IMG/VR virus record: IMGVR_UViG_3300028559_002034
Span: 1 to 24,911 of that record
Length of the DNA stretch: 24,911 nucleotides
Direction: 5' to 3' (one strand)
Origin: a virus
The notes beneath the pieces are model-generated. The model was not told the DNA's origin and searched no databases. It saw only the letters and a program-made list of their open reading frames with translations. The position numbers and the translations under genes are program-made. Position 1 is the stretch's first letter; each line of letters opens with the position of its first letter. Of this stretch, positions 1,996 through 11,168 are shown one piece after another.

Positions 1996-3813
1996 TCAAG
2001 GTTCCCAAACTAAATTTACCGGACCTTCTAAATCATCATATTGACTATTTGTCCAAGTAGGATTTTCTGGATTACCATCATATGCCCAGTCTTTTAGACC
2101 AAGTTCTTCAAATCTATTTTTAATCTTTTCATTGTAGTGTCCAGCAATTGTTCTAACTCTTCTTTGTATATCGGCTCTTGATATATTATGTGTGTTACCA
2201 CCATCGTTATGAATAAATTGTAAATATTCAACTTTTTTTATTCTTAACATTTTAGTAGTTAAAAAGGTTTGTATCACAAGTTCATAGTCATCTGCAATAG
2301 ATAATCTTCTATTATAACCACCTGCTCTAAAATAATCCTCTCTTCTCCATGATCTAATATGGTTAGGAACACCTACAATGTGTCTAATAGTTTTCGGATT
2401 TATATTAAATGATTGACACACTTTCATATGTTTATTAAAAATTAATTCATCTCTATAACTTCCATATCCAAATCCAAATCCATCACCATAAGTAAGAGAA
2501 TTCCAATTATTATCTAATTCAACAAAATCAGTATAGAAAAATCCACACTCTGGATATTTTTTAGATGCTTGTAGTAAAGTTTCAGTACAACTTGGCATTA
2601 GGTAATCATCGTGGTCAAACTCTGCTAAAATCTCACCTTTAGTTAGTGCTGCTGCCCGATACTTAGACTCACCAACAATACCACCAGACTTTTCTCTGAA
2701 TTCATATAGTTTTACACGATTATCATTTTTAGCAATCTCTTCAGCAACTTTATAAGTAATACCACCATCCGTAGAATCATTTACGATTACCCACTCCCAA
2801 TTATTATTGGTTTGATTCTGTAATGATTGATATGTTACTTTTAATTTTTCTCCTATATTGTATATAGGTGTAAAGTACGATACCAACTCTGACTTTGAAT
2901 CACGATTTAGTATATAAGACATAGCACATCTATAAGCATTTTCTCCTAAATCTGGATTTATATCTTTTGTGTGTATCCATCTTGATCGAATGTCCAGTGG
3001 CTGTGATGATAAGTTTCTAAATTGTGACCAGTCATCAGAGTGAGTGACTATACTATCTGGGTTTATATCTTTTAATATTTGTTGAAGATTACTATCATCT
3101 TTAGCATAGGTTACTCTTAGATCATCACTTTCATAATCAGCGAATTTATAAGATTTTAAAACAGGATTGTCTGGTCCTATGTAAAGAACTTTTGGTGTAA
3201 AGTTTGGAGATACTTTCAGCCAATTATAATAACATAACACATCTGGTATAAAATGGAAATCTTCTTTATTTATATTATAAATTTCTTCAATCAAATACCC
3301 ATCAGCTTTATAATCTCCTGGTTTAAATCGATAATTGTTATAAAGATCTCTTCTCAAAATAAATTGAGCCATATCAATATGTTGAACTCTTGTATTTTCT
3401 GGCTTGGCTTCTCTTATGTCTAGACCTGAGAAGTCCTTACCACCTACTTTTTGAGATACAATAAATCCTCTTTTTTCTGGAAAAAGATTAATATTTTTAT
3501 ACATCACAGTCCAAAAATCTTCATGAAGGATATTATCATCATCTACAAAGTGAATGAACCCATCATCAATAAGATCGATAGTTTTTGAGAGTAATGAGTG
3601 TCCAAAATCTCCTTCTTCTCCCTTAAAAAATAGTGGTTGACCACCAATTGAATATAAATCAGATAAAAAATCAGCATCTATATCTTTGATCACTCTGGTA
3701 TCAAAGACAACCCACCATTTGATATCAAATAGTGATGTTGTGAATATTGATTCCTTTACCTTATTTAGGTATTGAGGTCTTGTACATCTAGTTACTATAT
3801 TAAACTTAACCAT
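1996..3813 (-). CDS. Large multi-domain glycosyltransferase
   Basis: 605 aa, apparently three modules. Residues 1-200 read as a GT-A fold with a D-D-D-N metal and sugar-nucleotide motif at 91-94 (FVDDDN) and later IPDVLCYYNWL. Residues about 205-300 (LYIGPDNPVL ... PDSIVTHSDDW) look like a small Rossmann-type or GT-B-like segment. Residues about 308-605 are a typical family 2 transferase: YFTPIYNIGEKLKVTYQSL, V-N-D-S-T-D-G, and EFDHDDYLMP with D-H-D-D at 400-403. It probably transfers sugars to phage DNA, a virion protein or a host surface polymer; the acceptor cannot be told from sequence. Its last codons overlap the following kinase frame by 8 nt, so the two are translationally linked. Confidence 0.85.
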   Translation of the reverse strand: MVKFNIVTRCTRPQYLNKVKESIFTTSLFDIKWWVVFDTRVIKDIDADFLSDLYSIGGQPLFFKGEEGDFGHSLLSKTIDLIDDGFIHFVDDDNILHEDFWTVMYKNINLFPEKRGFIVSQKVGGKDFSGLDIREAKPENTRVQHIDMAQFILRRDLYNNYRFKPGDYKADGYLIEEIYNINKEDFHFIPDVLCYYNWLKVSPNFTPKVLYIGPDNPVLKSYKFADYESDDLRVTYAKDDSNLQQILKDINPDSIVTHSDDWSQFRNLSSQPLDIRSRWIHTKDINPDLGENAYRCAMSYILNRDSKSELVSYFTPIYNIGEKLKVTYQSLQNQTNNNWEWVIVNDSTDGGITYKVAEEIAKNDNRVKLYEFREKSGGIVGESKYRAAALTKGEILAEFDHDDYLMPSCTETLLQASKKYPECGFFYTDFVELDNNWNSLTYGDGFGFGYGSYRDELIFNKHMKVCQSFNINPKTIRHIVGVPNHIRSWRREDYFRAGGYNRRLSIADDYELVIQTFLTTKMLRIKKVEYLQFIHNDGGNTHNISRADIQRRVRTIAGHYNEKIKNRFEELGLKDWAYDGNPENPTWTNSQYDDLEGPVNLVWEP

Positions 3814-4369
3814 TAATTAAAATTTGTTTTGTGACATAATCTTGTCTTTTCTTGTAGTCAATTTTAGAAAGATCGATATAAGGTATATTCTCAATTTCTA
3901 AATAAGATTTAATCCAAGTATCTAATTTCTTAATATCATCTTCATTATGATATCTGATACCATCATTTGTATTTGTTGGTATCGGTGGAACATAGAATAA
4001 GTATTTCCATTTAGAAAGAGATTTGAGGATTTCTTTTTGAAGATGATTAATTGTTGCAATGTCTTTATCGGATAAAGGATTACCAAATAATCTTCTGAAA
4101 TAAAAATAGTTTAAAATACCAGAAGAATCACAAACAATAAATTCTTTAGATCCAATAAACATATTTTCACGATTAGATTGTTTGTAAAATATTGTTAATT
4201 GATCTATTGGTGTGTTAGGTATTCCATATTCAGCTATATAATCAGTTGCCGATTCTTGAACAAAAATTGAATTTTTTCCTAGTTTTTTTAATTCTGTGTG
4301 AACATCAGTTGCAAGTGTTGATTTTCCTGAACAAGGAGCTCCTATAAAACTTATTAATTTTGATTCCAT
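3806..4369 (-). CDS. P-loop kinase/NTPase of the AAA_28 (NadR kinase-like) type
   Basis: A single-domain P-loop protein. ISFIGAPCSGKST near the start is a Walker A (GxxCSGKS); VQESATDYIAEYG follows as in NadR-type and AAA_28 kinases, and FIVCDSSG (Walker B-like) comes later. Family members phosphorylate small molecules such as nicotinamide riboside or nucleosides; the substrate is not determined. I place the start at ATG 4369; an in-frame GTG at 4375 would add two residues. It is upstream of and overlaps the glycosyltransferase by 8 nt. A TTATATATTAAAA stretch about 35-50 bp upstream may be its promoter. Confidence 0.75.
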   Translation of the reverse strand: MESKLISFIGAPCSGKSTLATDVHTELKKLGKNSIFVQESATDYIAEYGIPNTPIDQLTIFYKQSNRENMFIGSKEFIVCDSSGILNYFYFRRLFGNPLSDKDIATINHLQKEILKSLSKWKYLFYVPPIPTNTNDGIRYHNEDDIKKLDTWIKSYLEIENIPYIDLSKIDYKKRQDYVTKQILING

Positions 4370-4415
4370 CTTCACTTTTATTCTATAATTCCTTATAAGT
4401 TTTTAATATATAAAT

Positions 4416-5253: not shown

Positions 5254-5760
5254 ATGAGATATTTGAAACGATTTGAAAATATCAACACACTTTCAGAAGA
5301 TGATAGACAATACCATCTCGACGAGATAAAATCTATATTTCAAGATATAATTGATGATTATAACATTGAAGAATTGCCTGATGATTTGGATGAAAATGAT
5401 GATTCAAGACCCGGTATATATTATTATATAGCTGATTTTAGTGAAATTGCAGATAGACATAGAAGACCAAATGGTGTTTTAAGAAGACCTCAATTTGAAC
5501 TAACATTATACTGCTATAGTGAATTTTATTTAAATTGGTATCTCGGAGATAAAGATTGGACAGAAGAAGATGCAAAAGAAAAGAATGTGCTTTGGTATAA
5601 ATACTTCAAGTTGATAGGAGAAGATATTAGTAAATTCGTAGAAAGACTTAGAGAAGCTGGTGGTTATATTGTAAAATATGAAATTCCAGAAGATATCGAA
5701 GAATTAAAAGATGATTCTGAGTTTAATATTTTTATATCATTGGAAAAATTCACCACTTAA
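5254..5760 (+). CDS. Acidic orphan protein with N-terminal MRYLKRFE tag
   Basis: 168 aa, very acidic (runs such as DDLDENDD and PEDIEELKDD). I place the start at ATG 5254 because the protein then begins MRYLKRFENIN, matching MKYLKKFESDE at 8423 and MKKLKHIKLFENY at 21096; a TTG at 5212 in the same frame would add 14 residues but hides the tag. The segment ISKFVERLREAGGYIVKYEI parallels ISTICKRLESSDFKVKMF in the 8423 protein, so the two may be distant paralogues. The likely promoter is TTTAATATATATAG at about 5190-5203. A plausible role is a capsid-targeted or virion-associated internal protein (inference from the tag only). Confidence 0.75.
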   Translation: MRYLKRFENINTLSEDDRQYHLDEIKSIFQDIIDDYNIEELPDDLDENDDSRPGIYYYIADFSEIADRHRRPNGVLRRPQFELTLYCYSEFYLNWYLGDKDWTEEDAKEKNVLWYKYFKLIGEDISKFVERLREAGGYIVKYEIPEDIEELKDDSEFNIFISLEKFTT

Positions 5761-5762
5761 AT

Positions 5763-5779
5763 CCCTTTAATTTAAAGGG
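5763..5779 (+). terminator. Hairpin CCCTTTA-att-TAAAGGG after the 168-aa gene
   Basis: A perfect 7-bp stem with a 3-nt loop starts 3 nt after the stop at 5760, followed by a moderately T-rich stretch. It fits a weak intrinsic terminator or a 3'-end protecting stem. Confidence 0.55.
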
Positions 5780-6404: not shown

Positions 6405-6662
6405 TTAGAATATAATCTCTATATCAGATTTAGCGTATGATTGGCAAGCGAGAATGTAGCTGTTCTCAGTCTCCTTGTCAGTCAGCGCTAAATTTGTTTT
6501 CATATCAACCTCACCAGAAATCAACTTACACATACAAGTTGAACAATGTCCACTTAGACAAGCGTAGGGTATATCAAAATCTTTAAGATTATCAAGAATT
6601 GTTTTATCAGAAGATATTTCTATTTGATGAGTTTCATCATCGATTGTAAATTTTAAATTCAT
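6405..6662 (-). CDS. Plant-type [2Fe-2S] ferredoxin
   Basis: 85 aa, a full-length small ferredoxin. The cluster ligands are visible as C35-x4-C40-x2-C43 (ACLSGHCSTC) and C73 (LACQSY), with the usual acidic beta-grasp context and an L-x-D-x-E before the last cysteine. It would carry single electrons. In phages such ferredoxins could serve ribonucleotide reductase, a desaturase or another reductase; no partner lies in this window. No signal peptide, so cytosolic. Confidence 0.88.
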   Translation of the reverse strand: MNLKFTIDDETHQIEISSDKTILDNLKDFDIPYACLSGHCSTCMCKLISGEVDMKTNLALTDKETENSYILACQSYAKSDIEIIF

Positions 6663-6695: not shown

Positions 6696-7103
6696 TCACT
6701 CACCATATCTAATATATTTTTGCATCCTCCCCGATAGTTTAAATAAATATTGATTTACCATATCTATATTTTTAGGTTTAATTGGTTTTCTTTTTAAATA
6801 GAAATCACTAAACTTAGCAATAAAAGATCCATCATTACATATTATTTCAATATTAAATGATAGTTTTTTATTATAAACTGTTCCTGATAGTTTTTTATTT
6901 TTTGAATAGATGGCAACATCATTCATTTTACTTTTCTGAAATTCAATTTCTATCCAAGACTTAGCATTGTTAAAAATGTAGTCAATACTTTTATCAGTAA
7001 CCGAATACTCAATTCTAGCCCTGTACTTACCATCAATCTCTTCAATTCTTTGAGAGTGTAATAGTGTTGGTATAAGTAGTAAAAGTGTGAATAATAATCT
7101 CAT
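6696..7103 (-). CDS. Small secreted protein, DUF4468-like
   Basis: 135 aa with a clean signal peptide (MRLLFTLLLLIPTLLHSQ). The rest (WIEIEFQKSKMNDVAIYSKN, KKLSGTVYNKKLSFNIEI.C.DGSFIAKFSDF) resembles the small DUF4468/TBP-like-fold secreted proteins common in Bacteroidota chromosomes. If correct it was acquired from a host. A TTTAATATATAAATC box sits directly before the ATG. Function unknown; the family assignment is tentative. Confidence 0.65.
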   Translation of the reverse strand: MRLLFTLLLLIPTLLHSQRIEEIDGKYRARIEYSVTDKSIDYIFNNAKSWIEIEFQKSKMNDVAIYSKNKKLSGTVYNKKLSFNIEIICNDGSFIAKFSDFYLKRKPIKPKNIDMVNQYLFKLSGRMQKYIRYGE

Positions 7104-7162: not shown

Positions 7163-7840
7163 TTAGAGTTTCAATTTATTTTTTACTTCTTTTAAGAGAT
7201 GTGGATGTGACCATTTCTCATCTTCTATTTTTACCTCTTCAACAAACCCGCGAGGTATTAAGTCATTAAATAATTGATATCTACCAGCTCTTGTATTTTC
7301 TCTTGAGTTTTTTATTTGAATGATATCACCACTTTCAAGTTGAATAAATAGTGTTCCCTTTTTATATTGTGATTTGTTACCATTATTATATTCAATCTCA
7401 CAATCTTCTTTAACTTTCCAACCTATTATTTCATACTTTTTAGGTTCTTGAGTTGAATTTTCACCTAATAATTTATCAAGTTTAAAGTTTCTATACTCTT
7501 GTTGGTCCATTACATAAAGTGGTTTTACTCTCCACTCATATCCATGACTTTTAGCTATATAAAACTTTAGAGCTGCTTCTGTTGCTGAATTTGCCGAATA
7601 GTATATTTTTCTATTCCAATAAGTTTCCCAATTGTACCAATCACCTTTACTATCTTTCCAACGAACCTCAACGGTCCACCCGTAAGGTTTCATACCTTCA
7701 GCGACAGCTTGTGTTTGGAAGTTAATTGATTTTTCTACTACCCAATTTCTATTAAATAATCTGTAATAGTGATCTGGGATAATTGAATTTCTCTTCTTTT
7801 TGAGAAATTTGAGTAACTTTCTTGAAATAATCTACAACAT
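7163..7840 (-). CDS. Orphan gene with in-frame TAG at codon 3, downstream of tRNA(CUA)
   Basis: From ATG 7840 the frame reads ATG TTG TAG ATT ATT TCA and then stays open to TAA at 7163: 225 residues if TAG is read as an amino acid. Initiating at the internal ATG 7693 would give 176 aa but would discard a protein-like segment (RKLLKFLKKKRNS, PDHYYRLFNRNWVVEKS) that runs without a break into MKPYGWTVEVRWKD. The remainder is rich in W, Y, K and E (GDWYNWETYWNRKIYY, SATEAALKFYIAK), ending HLLKEVKNKLKL. No known family. The only ATG upstream of 7693 in frame is the one at 7840, preceded by an A-rich leader (TAAAAATAAAAATAAAAGCT) joined directly to the tRNA 3' end. Recoding is inferred; alternatives are internal initiation or recent nonsense decay. 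Confidence 0.6.
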
Positions 7841-7861
7841 AGCTTTTATTTTTATTTTTAG

Positions 7862-7940
7862 TGCGACTTGGAGGATTCGAACCCCATATTAGATGGTTTA
7901 GAGCCATCTTATGCTCGCCAGACATATTAATTCAAGTTGC
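7862..7940 (-). tRNA. tRNA with anticodon CUA (amber suppressor-type)
   Basis: The minus strand folds as a tRNA. The acceptor GCAACTT pairs with AAGTCGC (one A-C mismatch, extended by an extra G-C). The D-arm is TATG/CATA with GG in the loop. The anticodon stem is GATGG/CCATC around loop CTCTAAA, giving anticodon CTA at 7901-7899 after T33. The variable loop is 5 nt and the T-arm is TGGGG-TTCGAAT-CCTCC. Discriminator A; no CCA encoded. Anticodon CUA reads UAG. It is unusual in having about 7 nt rather than 2 between the acceptor and D-stems, so a covariance model may score it low. It is the only tRNA seen here and lies 21 nt upstream of a gene with TAG at codon 3. Confidence 0.8.
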
Positions 7941-8033
7941 GTTATTATTACATTACAAATATTGTAAAAAGTTTTAATATTTCATAAAATTTTAAAAATT
8001 TTTAAGATATATACATAAAATATAATTATAACT

Positions 8034-8411
8034 ATGAAACAAAAGAGTTTTGGTCCGCATTTGACATTAGACCTAACAGGATGTCCTAAAGAAATTTTAG
8101 AAAATTATGAATTACACTTTGATTACTTAAAGACATTACCAGAAATGATAGGAATGACACCAATAATTCAACCATATGTATTTCCATATTCAGGATTAGT
8201 ACCAGAAGATAGGGGAATAACAGGAATTGTTATCATAGCAGAAAGTCATTTGTCAGTTCATTCATTCCAAGAAAAGAATTATACTTTTATTGATATATTT
8301 TCTTGTAAAGATTTTGATGTTGATAAGGCAGTAGAATATACACTCGAACTATTTAAACCAATTAGTTATACAAAAAACATTGTTGAAAGAGGAATTGATT
8401 TTCCAAGATAA
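8034..8411 (+). CDS. speD: S-adenosylmethionine decarboxylase proenzyme
   Basis: 125 aa, matching the short bacterial class (SpeH-like). FGPHLTLDLTGCPKEIL at the start and GITGIVIIAESHLSVHSF in the middle are diagnostic. Self-cleavage at E70/S71 would turn Ser71 into the pyruvoyl cofactor; H76 and C91 (FSCKDF) are the other expected active-site residues. The product decarboxylates AdoMet to supply aminopropyl groups for spermidine. In a phage this could raise polyamine levels for DNA packaging or translation, and speD is known from some marine cyanophages. It is preceded by TATACATAAAATATAA and followed 11 nt later by the tagged 8423 gene, probably co-transcribed. Confidence 0.92.
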   Translation: MKQKSFGPHLTLDLTGCPKEILENYELHFDYLKTLPEMIGMTPIIQPYVFPYSGLVPEDRGITGIVIIAESHLSVHSFQEKNYTFIDIFSCKDFDVDKAVEYTLELFKPISYTKNIVERGIDFPR

Positions 8412-8422
8412 ATATATACTCT

Positions 8423-8815
8423 ATGAAATATTTAAAGAAGTTTGAATCTGATGAAATATCTAATTTTATTGATATGAGAGAGGAAATATTAAATCTTTGC
8501 ACTGAACTTACCGATAATGGAATTCGATGTGATATATTGAAACTTCCAAATGGTGGAGTTGAATTAGTTGTCAATTTAGATTTAACTTTAAATCAGTGGG
8601 CCAGTGGATATAAAGATGTTAAAATTCCAGAAGAAGGAAATTATAGTGACTCTATAAAATTCTTTGACGTTTATAGGAATAAATTTAATTTTGTGACTGA
8701 AGAAATATCAACTATTTGTAAAAGATTAGAAAGTTCAGATTTTAAAGTTAAAATGTTTCAACAGATGTCTGTTCTAAAAAATGATTATTTCAAAATAGTA
8801 ATAGTTAGGGATTAG
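8423..8815 (+). CDS. Orphan protein with N-terminal MKYLKKFE tag, ends TAG TAA
   Basis: 130 aa starting MKYLKKFESDEIS, the same N-terminal tag as the 5254 protein and close to the 21096 one. The body has a beta-rich centre (NGIRCDILKLPNGGVELVVNLDL) and a helix ISTICKRLESSDFKVKMF that aligns loosely with ISKFVERLREAGGYIVKYEI of the 5254 protein. It ends with the tandem stop TAG TAA, so amber readthrough would add one residue only. It is just downstream of speD and overlaps the convergent 8805 gene by 11 nt. Function unknown. Confidence 0.75.
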   Translation: MKYLKKFESDEISNFIDMREEILNLCTELTDNGIRCDILKLPNGGVELVVNLDLTLNQWASGYKDVKIPEEGNYSDSIKFFDVYRNKFNFVTEEISTICKRLESSDFKVKMFQQMSVLKNDYFKIVIVRD

Positions 8816-9086
8816 TAAATATTTGATCGATCTTTTCTTCTCTTAACTGATCAACATCAATAAAATATTTATCAAACTCTCTTACTTTTATAGGTGACCA
8901 GAAAGACTCTCTTTCATTCTCCATATAATAATAAACACCTACTCTACGCTCATAATCCTCTGGTATTCTAATTTTATAGTATTTACCTTTAATCCATTTA
9001 GACCAGTGCTCACCATAATCCTTACCGTTGATTGGGTATGTGTTTAAATTTCTCTCAAAATAAGTTCTTTTGCAATAAACTTTCAC
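8805..9086 (-). CDS. Orphan with C-terminal REEKIDQIF tail
   Basis: 93 aa from GTG 9086; no in-frame ATG gives the same N-terminus and a TGA lies immediately upstream, so GTG is the only good start. The protein is basic and aromatic (MKVYCKRTYFERN, GEHWSKWIKGKYYKIRIPEDYERRVGVYYYMENE) and probably forms a small beta-barrel. The end LREEKIDQIFTNP carries the tail shared by several unrelated small proteins in this window. It begins 9 nt after the CoaE-like gene and belongs to that operon. Confidence 0.65.
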   Translation of the reverse strand: MKVYCKRTYFERNLNTYPINGKDYGEHWSKWIKGKYYKIRIPEDYERRVGVYYYMENERESFWSPIKVREFDKYFIDVDQLREEKIDQIFTNP

Positions 9087-9095
9087 TCATAATCA

Positions 9096-9683
9096 TTAAT
9101 TTTTATTAATCAAATCATTTATTTGTTTAACTTGTTCAAATACCCCTTCTGTATAGTCATTATTCACAATGTATTTTGACTTTTCAATTTTAAATTCATC
9201 CGGCATCTGTGTTTTCATTCTTCTGTTATATTCATCAGAAGTAATTTTATCACGATCCATTGCCATTTGTTTCCTTTTCTTAGGATTCGCATTAACGAAA
9301 ATAACTTCATCAAATTGATCCTGCATGTTGTATTCATAGATTAAGGCACTTTCCACAAGAACATACTTCTTATCTGAGAACTCTTCGTAAAACTTCTCTA
9401 ATTCTTCTTGAAGATATGGTTTGATTATCTCTGATATATCTTTTAGATTCTTACCAGTTTCATCATAGAACAACTTTCTAACCATATATTCCTTATTCAT
9501 AACATTACCTGTGTATGAATCTGGAAATCGTTTTTTAATCTTCTTAATAAGACTTTCATTAGTGATTTGAAGTTGTCTAACAACTTGATCCATAATCAAG
9601 ACAGGAACACCTAAACTGGCAAATTTCATCGCAATGAATGTTTTTCCCGATCCCATTGAACTCGTGATTGATATACGTTTCAT
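9096..9683 (-). CDS. Dephospho-CoA kinase-like (CoaE family) P-loop kinase
   Basis: 195 aa, normal CoaE length. Features: Walker A ITSSMGSGKT (8-15), D32 in MDQVVRQL where CoaE has its catalytic Asp, P-x-L-x-E-E-L-E-K-F, VESALIYE, the lid region RDKITSDEYNRRMKTQMP, and the terminal KSKYIVNND. CoaE phosphorylates dephospho-CoA to CoA; related phage enzymes can instead phosphorylate deoxynucleoside monophosphates, so the substrate is uncertain. It lies between adenylate kinase and the 8805 orphan with short gaps, forming one operon. Confidence 0.8.
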   Translation of the reverse strand: MKRISITSSMGSGKTFIAMKFASLGVPVLIMDQVVRQLQITNESLIKKIKKRFPDSYTGNVMNKEYMVRKLFYDETGKNLKDISEIIKPYLQEELEKFYEEFSDKKYVLVESALIYEYNMQDQFDEVIFVNANPKKRKQMAMDRDKITSDEYNRRMKTQMPDEFKIEKSKYIVNNDYTEGVFEQVKQINDLINKN

Positions 9684-9697
9684 AGTTTAGAATAAGA

Positions 9698-10264
9698 TTA
9701 TTTCCACAATTTTATAATGTTTTCAACTCTATTAAAAACCTCTTTTATAGATTCTTCACCATCAATAGTTGCTAAGATCTTTTTATCACCATAAAAATCA
9801 ATTAGAGGTTTAGTTTCTGTTTTAAATTGATGAATTCTACGATCAATAATATCAATACTTTGATCATCTTCACGACCAGAAGTTTTACCACGTTCTAGAA
9901 TTCTTTCTCGGATTGTATCATCAGATACTTCTAAATAGATAACTAAACCAATATCAGCAATTGTATCAAGGAATTCACCTTGAACCACGGTTCTTGGAAA
10001 ACCATCGAATATAACTCGACCGTTCAGTTCAAAGTCTTTAATCTTATTTTTGATAACTTGATTAACAACTTCGTCTGGTACAAGATTACCCTTACCTAGA
10101 ATATCACTGATTTCTTTACCAATCTCACTACCAGATTTCTTTTCTTCTCGGAGTATGTCACCGGTTGATACTAAAGTGAATCCATACTTTTGGACTAATT
10201 GTTTTGAAAGAGTTCCTTTGCCACCACCTGGTGGTGATAATAATACTATATTTCCGTTATACAT
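9698..10264 (-). CDS. adk: Adenylate kinase, short-lid type
   Basis: 188 aa from ATG 10264; a longer frame upstream is hydrophobic non-coding sequence. Features: P-loop LSPPGGGKGTLSKQL (about 9-22), STGDILREE for AMP binding, LVPDEVVNQVIKNKI, the DGFPRT signature, and a short lid RGKTSGREDD in place of the long zinc lid, as in Bacteroidota and eukaryotic AK1-type enzymes. It interconverts ATP + AMP and 2 ADP, supporting nucleotide supply during infection. The transcript leader holds a promoter followed at once by a hairpin and U-run (10286-10324). Confidence 0.92.
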   Translation of the reverse strand: MYNGNIVLLSPPGGGKGTLSKQLVQKYGFTLVSTGDILREEKKSGSEIGKEISDILGKGNLVPDEVVNQVIKNKIKDFELNGRVIFDGFPRTVVQGEFLDTIADIGLVIYLEVSDDTIRERILERGKTSGREDDQSIDIIDRRIHQFKTETKPLIDFYGDKKILATIDGEESIKEVFNRVENIIKLWK

Positions 10265-10285
10265 ACAATTTCTATTATTTAAATT

Positions 10286-10309
10286 AAAAAAGTTGGAGTC
10301 AGGGACTCC
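10286..10309 (-). terminator. Hairpin plus U-run in the adk leader (terminator or attenuator)
   Basis: The minus strand reads GGAGTC-CCT-GACTCC, then AAC and TTTTTT: a 6-bp GC-rich stem with a 3-nt loop and a U-tract, the form of an intrinsic terminator. It sits between a TATATTTG promoter box (10317-10324) and the adk start at 10264, so it either ends transcription coming from rnpA or attenuates the adk transcript. Confidence 0.6.
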
Positions 10310-10316
10310 TATTAGA

Positions 10317-10324
10317 CAAATATA
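10317..10324 (-). promoter_or_regulatory. Bacteroidota-type promoter -7 box TATATTTG before adk
   Basis: Minus-strand TATATTTG (TAnnTTTG consensus) lies 8 nt before the leader hairpin of adk. The same bases read on the plus strand are CAAATATATAAAAAAAC, the late-type box of the divergent endonuclease gene at 10344. Confidence 0.45.
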
Positions 10325-10343
10325 TAAAAAAACAAATAACCAA

Positions 10344-11168
10344 ATGGAAGAATTTAAAAGAAAATGTCCATCTTGTGACAAAGAAATAATTTATAAGAGT
10401 AAAACTACATTTAAAAGAGCATCATTACTGAATACTAAATGTATGAAATGTAATAACTCAGGTCAGAATAATCCTTTTTATGGTAAAACACATAATGACG
10501 ACATTAAAAATATTTTACGAGAAAATAACCTAAAAAATATTGATAAATATCGAACTGAGGAATTCAGAAGTAAAGTTTCAAAGCATAATAGAGGTGAGAA
10601 AAATCCAATGTATGGTAAAAGTTTTTATGAAGTTTGGATAGAAAAGTATGGCATAGATATAGCTGATGAAAAAATGAATGAATTTAAAATGAAACAAAGT
10701 ATAAATAGTACTGGTGAAAATAACTCAATGTTTGGAAGACCATCACCAAATGGTAGCGGAAACGGATGGAGTGGTTGGTATGGTAAGTTCTTTTTCAAAA
10801 GTTTAAAAGAATTATCCTTCATATTAATGATGGAGAAAGAGGGAATTGACATTGAGTCAGCTGAGAAGAAAAAGTTTAGAATTGGTTATATTGATAGAGA
10901 TGGTAATAAAAGAAACTACTATCCAGATTTTTTCATCAAAGAAAAAAAGTTAATAGTTGAGTGCAAGCCTTCTCATTTTTTCGATTCTGAGCAAGTTTTA
11001 TTGAAAAAGGAAAGTGCTTTAAAGTTTTGTGAAGAGAATGGATTAACTTACAAACTAATAGATCCTGTTAAGTTGACAAATCAGAAAATAAAAGAATTAT
11101 ATGATAAAGGTTTAATAAGATTTATAGATAGATATGAAAAGAAGTATAATGATAAATTCATATCTTAA
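10344..11168 (+). CDS. Homing endonuclease: NUMOD3 repeats plus PD-(D/E)XK nuclease
   Basis: 274 aa from ATG 10344. The N-terminal zinc ribbon has C8-x2-C11 and C33-x2-C36. Three NUMOD3 DNA-binding motifs follow: GQNNPFYGK (40-48), GEKNPMYGK (84-92) and GENNSMFGR (124-132). The C-terminal nuclease has YYPDFFI (P194-D195) and LIVECKP (E206-x-K208), a PD-(D/E)XK/Vsr-like active site. It is probably a free-standing mobile endonuclease inserted between adk and rnpA in the opposite orientation; its stop lies inside the 3' end of rnpA (11-nt overlap). Confidence 0.85.
   Translation: MEEFKRKCPSCDKEIIYKSKTTFKRASLLNTKCMKCNNSGQNNPFYGKTHNDDIKNILRENNLKNIDKYRTEEFRSKVSKHNRGEKNPMYGKSFYEVWIEKYGIDIADEKMNEFKMKQSINSTGENNSMFGRPSPNGSGNGWSGWYGKFFFKSLKELSFILMMEKEGIDIESAEKKKFRIGYIDRDGNKRNYYPDFFIKEKKLIVECKPSHFFDSEQVLLKKESALKFCEENGLTYKLIDPVKLTNQKIKELYDKGLIRFIDRYEKKYNDKFIS

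Follow-up and report, generated by a model that had tools for sequence, protein, structure and literature searches.

A putative gene-specific amber gate on tRNA-related genes of jumbo phages, linked to a phage-encoded CUA tRNA

Layout of the locus

The window analyzed here is a 24.9-kb IMG/VR virus fragment with the features of interest on its minus strand. Searches at the DNA level found no relatives of it among phages; the closest relative is phage G001 (IMGVR_UViG_3300028559_000035, locus L002). The window carries a tRNA gene with the anticodon CTA, followed by an open frame (here named gene X) with TAG as its third codon. Below, "gated" denotes a start of this type.

7956 to 7963, minus strand: promoter-like sequence AATATTTG, 15 nt ahead of the tRNA (predicted from sequence)
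7862 to 7940, minus strand: putative tRNA gene for amber codons (anticodon CTA), with an extended acceptor-to-D-stem linker (ARAGORN; Rfam RF00005)
7841 to 7861, minus strand: 21-nt spacer, tRNA 3' trailer and gene X leader (sequence)
7832 to 7840, minus strand: gated start ATG TTG TAG (sequence)
7163 to 7840, minus strand: gene X, 225 codons, TAG as codon 3 (homologues in relatives)
6696 to 7103, minus strand: gene next to gene X, collinear with G001 8754 to 9014 (tblastn, 60%)
6405 to 6662, minus strand: 2Fe-2S ferredoxin (Fer2; Pfam PF00111, E = 2e-16), collinear with G001 9571 to 9825 (tblastn, 76%)

The start of gene X reads ATG TTG TAG ATT ATT TCA, with the ATG at 7840 to 7838, the TTG at 7837 to 7835, and the TAG at 7834 to 7832. 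The frame is open from 7831 to a TAA ending at 7163 and comprises 225 codons when the TAG is read as sense. Both the coordinates and this reading, with 21 nt between the tRNA 3' end and the ATG, were confirmed from the sequence as the preliminary description had given them.

Ahead of the tRNA, AATATTTG deviates by one mismatch from TAnnTTTG, the -7 promoter consensus of Bacteroidota; promoter activity is predicted. Window and G001 have ATATTTGTAATGTAATAA in common immediately ahead of the tRNA, and TATATTTG precedes the tRNA of phage LR745206. Together, the promoter-like sequence, the tRNA, the spacer, and gene X appear to form a single transcription unit. Divergently from the tRNA, the window encodes an S-adenosylmethionine decarboxylase (8034 to 8411; Pfam), which, like the ferredoxin, is likely an auxiliary metabolic gene. 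Elsewhere, a NUMOD3/TnsA-like homing endonuclease gene (10155 to 11168) overlaps an opposite-strand frame (9698 to 10381).

Coding status of gene X

Homologues of gene X were identified in G001 (L002:4899-5570, 223 residues), L042, L045, LR745206, and G002. In the protein alignment with G001, similarity extends across the whole N terminus, including the stretch upstream of 7693, and the ATG of the G001 gene is matched to the codon that directly follows the window TAG. The first 43 aligned codons have a dN of 0.36 and a dS of 0.98. Judged by these comparisons, the stretch upstream of 7693 is coding, which bears out the earlier claim that the frame behind the TAG is protein-like.

Translation from the internal ATG at 7693 (M-K-P-Y-G), with a noncoding frame upstream, would make use of the first in-frame ATG, GTG, or TTG after the TAG. 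However, the homologues in five phages reach further upstream, and in the gated peptidyl-tRNA hydrolase genes described below the equivalent start either is absent or would leave as little as half of the domain. Homologues that all begin at 7693, the outcome that the preliminary description had set against its own reading, were not seen; similarity reaches the TAG. Because of this homology and the purifying selection upstream of 7693, the internal start was ruled out, and we give it hardly any credence.

Gene X had no match in Pfam or PHROG. Its AlphaFold model was poor (mean pLDDT, 58.7), and a Foldseek search with this model gave no match.

The gated cluster in related phages

In G001 and in LR745206, a 634-kb phage, gene X lies between genes for a PTH2-type peptidyl-tRNA hydrolase (PF01981) and an HD-domain protein, forming a PTH2-gene X-HD cluster. 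The genes flanking gene X start with ATG AAC TAG ATT and ATG AAT TAG ATT in G001 and with ATG AAC AAT TAG ATT and ATG AAT ACT TAG ATT in LR745206. The PTH2 Pfam score is 28.1 bits in G001, above the cut-off of 23, and 20.4 bits, below it, in LR745206; the HD match, at 20.9 bits, just misses its cut-off of 22.

PTH2 and HD genes starting with ATG, a few codons, and TAG were found in G001, G002, LR745206, and dozens more jumbo phages. Among phage genomes, tblastn revealed gated starts in LR756500, LR756501, LR756502, LR756504, LR756511, Tenacibaculum phage pT24, Acinetobacter phage ME3, Salmonella phage Arash, Xanthomonas phages XbC2 and XacN1, Cronobacter phage GAP32, Serratia phage BF, and Stenotrophomonas phage CM1, and also in Mycobacterium phages IkeLoa and ScoobyDoobyDoo, where the start is ATG TAG or GTG TAG. 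In XbC2, GAP32, and BF, the HD gene has an in-frame TAG deeper in the gene, at codon 47. In RaK2, a TAG lies ahead of the annotated ATG of the PTH2 gene, and no ATG comes before that TAG. In several annotated records the gated gene is split or given an internal start; upstream extension of XacN1 ORF364 (HD-PTH2) reaches ATG AAG TAG.

With respect to the tRNA, G001 has a CTA tRNA that shares the unusual shape of the window tRNA. After 24 nt follows the start ATG AGT AAT ATG TAG of an endonuclease-like gene and then a TAG-gated PTH2 gene, a plain gene X, and a TAG-gated HD gene. In L044, the tRNA lies 137 nt ahead of a TAG-gated PTH2 gene, so that a tRNA directly upstream of gated genes is found in the window, G001, and L044. 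These two loci, with the tRNA ahead of gated genes and G001 being an independent phage collinear with the window, support the earlier proposal that tRNA and gene are coupled rather than placed by chance.

History of the window locus

By tblastn, collinearity between the window and G001 extends from the gene at 3806 to 4375 through the ferredoxin, the gene at 6696 to 7103, and gene X to the tRNA. The PTH2, HD, and endonuclease-like genes are absent from the collinear stretch of the window, and PTH2 and HD are absent from the entire fragment. Gene X shares two features with the gated PTH2/HD cassette: its in-frame TAG falls within codons 2 to 8 after the ATG (codon 3) and a CTA tRNA is present in the locus (21 nt upstream). 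By Pfam and PHROG it is neither PTH2 nor HD.

In G001, L042, L045, and LR745206, gene X starts with a plain ATG without TAG, so the gate of gene X itself is known from one contig. The reading given in the preliminary description is supported with a qualification: the homologues do begin upstream of 7693, but the TAG sits mainly on PTH2 and HD genes. If the TAG of gene X were due to faulty assembly or to a nonsense mutation of recent date, leaving the window phage without a gate, this would fit the plain starts of these homologues. It would not account for the 12-mer ATGTTGTAGATT at the gated start, which is identical to the conserved HD-gene start in L042 and L045, or for the placement directly behind a CTA tRNA, which repeats the G001 arrangement. 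Because of the 12-mer shared with the HD starts, we consider decay or an assembly error distinctly unlikely.

The gate instead seems to belong mainly to PTH2 and HD and to have been taken over by gene X of the window, where this is the first gene behind the tRNA. In the simplest account, the gate would have been retained by whichever gene comes first behind the tRNA or would have been copied from an HD gene, the latter being suggested by the match of ATGTTGTAGATT to the HD starts.

Survey of gated starts

An IMG/VR scan with the HD alignment yielded 39 loci; together with phage records and after removal of four duplicates, 52 loci were HMM-scored on frames with stops read as X. We found 64 gated genes (40 PTH2 and 24 HD) in 46 of the 52 loci, with an ATG or GTG 1 to 7 codons before an in-frame TAG at the domain start. 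In 33 of them the TAG is the third codon, and in 18 it is the fourth. Although the classification was open to any stop, no TAA or TGA gate was present in the 52 loci, and TAG was used in all 64 genes. Divergent gated PTH2 genes in L051 and L052 start with ATG TTG TAG and ATG ACC TAG, and in the remaining four loci (L047, L065, L067, and L079) a TAG is located close to the start, but no in-frame ATG is clearly recognizable. Since the loci include groups of close relatives, the 64 gated genes are not independent events. Repeated selection for TAG itself is nevertheless suggested by the codons on either side of it, by its position, and by the TAGs further inside the genes (HD codon 47 and the LR756501 PTH2 gene).

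As background, 2276 long ORFs from 2.0 Mb of sequence (eight genomes or fragments) were screened for cases in which an ATG lies no more than 4 codons ahead of the upstream stop and that stop is followed by 5 or more codons without a start. Such gate-like starts amounted to 31/1455 for TAA, 11/426 for TGA, and 19/395 for TAG, and 13 of the 19 TAG cases were cluster genes.

Most gated PTH2 genes have no ATG, GTG, or TTG for 20 to 88 codons after the TAG, or none at all. The first standard start lies at least 48 codons downstream of the TAG in Arash and its relatives, and the G001 PTH2 gene has none in 116 codons. In PTH2 pairs, dN/dS over the first 40 codons after the TAG is well below 1 and similar to that of the rest of the gene (for example, dN and dS of 0.02 and 0.32 for Arash versus L075, 0.03 and 0.56 for XbC2 versus GAP32, and 0.08 and 0.82 for LR745206 versus L045). 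In 35 of the 64 gated genes, a 4-mer resembling a Shine-Dalgarno sequence lies ahead of the ATG.

Fifteen kinds of codon follow the TAG in these genes, ATT being the commonest (30/64). For this reason we rank as the main rival that ATG-x-TAG is a two-codon upstream minigene and that the real start is a noncanonical codon after the TAG, reached by reinitiation or direct initiation. ATT is a rare but real initiator, and the alignment of the G001 gene X ATG with the first post-TAG codon would also fit. However, the other genes have AAC, AAT, ACC, GTT, GCT, CTT, and so on at this position, 14 non-ATT kinds in all. A minigene would tolerate TAA or TGA, yet TAG is never replaced; a minigene is impossible for the deeper TAGs and leaves the linkage to a CTA tRNA unexplained. 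Taken together, we regard it as improbable.

Phages of genetic code 15 are known (PMC9523058, PMC10607447), and the presence of a CTA tRNA would be compatible with a genome-wide reassignment of that type, in which early TAGs are ordinary sense codons. TAG, however, terminates about 8 to 15% of long ORFs in the background genomes, from which it follows that TAG is not reassigned, and it ends five genes in the window. Moreover, in-frame TAGs are concentrated at codons 2 to 5 of the cluster genes and not spread across long late genes. Genome-wide reassignment is thus very improbable; code 15 was set aside, as its hallmarks, TAG as sense in many genes and rarely as a stop, were not found. The five TAG-terminated ORFs of the window (1408, 4562, 8815, 14263, and 17563) all meet a second stop within 1 to 8 codons, possibly as a back-up against readthrough.

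The tRNA and its class

ARAGORN called the window tRNA at 7934 to 7863 with the anticodon CTA and labeled it tRNA-Pyl for no other reason than this anticodon. The T-loop TTCGAAT and the long D region are not those of a tRNA-Pyl. The sequence folds into a four-arm structure with a 7-nt anticodon loop, CUCUAAA, as expected of a CUA cloverleaf, and its acceptor stem (GCAACTT/AAGTCGC) contains one A-C mismatch. The Rfam tRNA model gave positions 7940 to 7862 a score of 23.5 bits, short of its gathering threshold (29), and this score and the long acceptor-D linker set it apart from canonical tRNAs. We consider it a candidate amber suppressor, with charging and suppression predicted.

The long-linker architecture is common to the window, G001, and LR745206. 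Such CTA tRNAs in G001 (5683 to 5764), L044, and LR745206 were missed by ARAGORN and found by a separate scan. Used alone as a query, the window tRNA gave only short matches to tRNA-Arg. A DNA-pattern search of IMG/VR for the odd shape returned 44 loci, which were set aside, as the sole CTA tRNA that the separate scan detected among them was of ordinary shape.

Across the survey, CTA was the commonest anticodon by ARAGORN (32 of 53 loci), followed by CAT (18). XacN1 and pT24 have CTA tRNAs, and the L045 phage has an ordinary one (ARAGORN) far from the cluster; none was seen in G002 and G003, both of which are fragments. Because nearly all homologues have the TAG, the residue added at the UAG cannot be deduced from them.

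A proposed amber gate

It appears that a few tRNA-related genes of jumbo phages are locked by a stop at the third codon, with the unlocking tRNA usually nearby. For the window, we propose that gene X starts at 7840 and that its UAG is a gene-specific gate opened by the phage-encoded suppressor tRNA, a reading to which we assign a probability of roughly 80%. Without a charged CUA tRNA, ribosomes would stop on gene X after two codons. The phage tRNA, transcribed just upstream, would be released by RNA processing and charged; it would then compete with RF1 and insert an amino acid at the UAG, giving the 225-residue protein. During early infection, RF1 would outcompete the tRNA, and translation would yield just a dipeptide. 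We infer that the UAG is decoded in vivo and that tRNA and gene share a transcript.

In jumbo phages more widely, the conserved cassette consists of a CUA tRNA, a PTH2-type peptidyl-tRNA hydrolase, and an HD-domain protein; PTH2 and/or HD carry the UAG at codons 2 to 5, rarely deeper, and UAG elsewhere remains an ordinary stop. The link to a peptidyl-tRNA hydrolase suggests timing or feedback: the gate may delay expression until the tRNA has accumulated, or may couple suppressor activity to an enzyme that acts on tRNA. We favor the two together. We also lean toward the broader view that this is an ancient natural lock shared by jumbo phages that infect Bacteroidota, Proteobacteria, and Mycobacterium, in which PTH2 and HD (plus gene X in the window) need the phage CUA tRNA, with probable feedback between suppressor-tRNA activity and enzymes for peptidyl- or aminoacyl-tRNA.

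Relation to known systems

In code-15 recoded phages (crAss-like and Lak), a phage-encoded CUA tRNA likewise decodes UAG during infection, as would be the case here, and a timing role for lytic genes has been proposed. In contrast, UAG stays an ordinary stop in the phages studied here and is in frame at codons 2 to 5 of two or three specific genes. As with pyrrolysine (tRNAPyl, UAG) and selenocysteine, a dedicated tRNA would read a stop in a few genes only, but the cassette tRNAs are mostly ordinary looking, with a TTCGA T-loop, and the cassette UAG lies at the very start instead of in the active site. In prfB, encoding RF2, an early in-frame UGA of a translation factor senses termination efficiency, with a +1 frameshift that senses RF2. 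The cassette UAG differs in that it appears to sense suppressor tRNA versus RF1, on a peptidyl-tRNA hydrolase.

An engineered suppressor-tRNA feed-forward loop combines an amber codon with a controlled suppressor tRNA for tight conditional expression (PMC7969014); the phage cassette would be the equivalent of this man-made circuit in nature. The authors of XacN1, a jumbo phage with CUA tRNAs and a PTH2-HD gene, identified no target for its two CUA suppressor tRNAs (PMC5852040); in its annotation, the gated ORF364 begins at an internal start. Agrobacterium phage Atu_ph07 carries an opal (UCA) suppressor together with two PTH genes (PMC6102473). In the open-licence literature, which was partially covered, we found no description of a conserved gene-specific amber gate, which seems to be new; genome-wide CUA-tRNA recoding in gut phages is already known. 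Many large phages carry amber suppressor tRNAs with puzzling targets, and a conserved target set would supply a function. Such a gate would show stop-codon suppression as a natural switch per gene, not per genome, and would explain the systematic mis-annotation of PTH2 and HD genes with internal starts.

Further observations in related loci

In L039 and L153 (Mycobacterium phages), PTH2 is annotated from a GTG directly after GTG TAG or ATG TAG, and a tRNA-Pyl(cta) lies about 180 to 250 nt downstream of it. L034, L035, and L154 (Mimasvirus, Eneladusvirus) have an HD gene with a conserved TAG at codon 47 (SELDTG*GDP), annotated as two separate hypothetical proteins, and a gated PTH2 gene just upstream. 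The PTH2 gene of L152 (LR756501, a 735-kb phage) has a second in-frame TAG (EFP*IYEQW) besides that at codon 3, with a CTA tRNA about 2.2 kb downstream.

In L079 (5600 to 5660), no in-frame start is present for PTH2; a frame opened by an ATG enters CAG TAG G and the PTH2 frame resumes one base on, as if by a +1 frameshift at the UAG or a sequencing indel. ARAGORN found no CTA tRNA in this 12.5-kb locus. In LR745206 (L028:7364-7437), ARAGORN called a tRNA with an enlarged anticodon loop (gtag). The phage of L075 encodes a tRNA with the ochre-type anticodon TTA (10804 to 10882) and also has a CTA tRNA.
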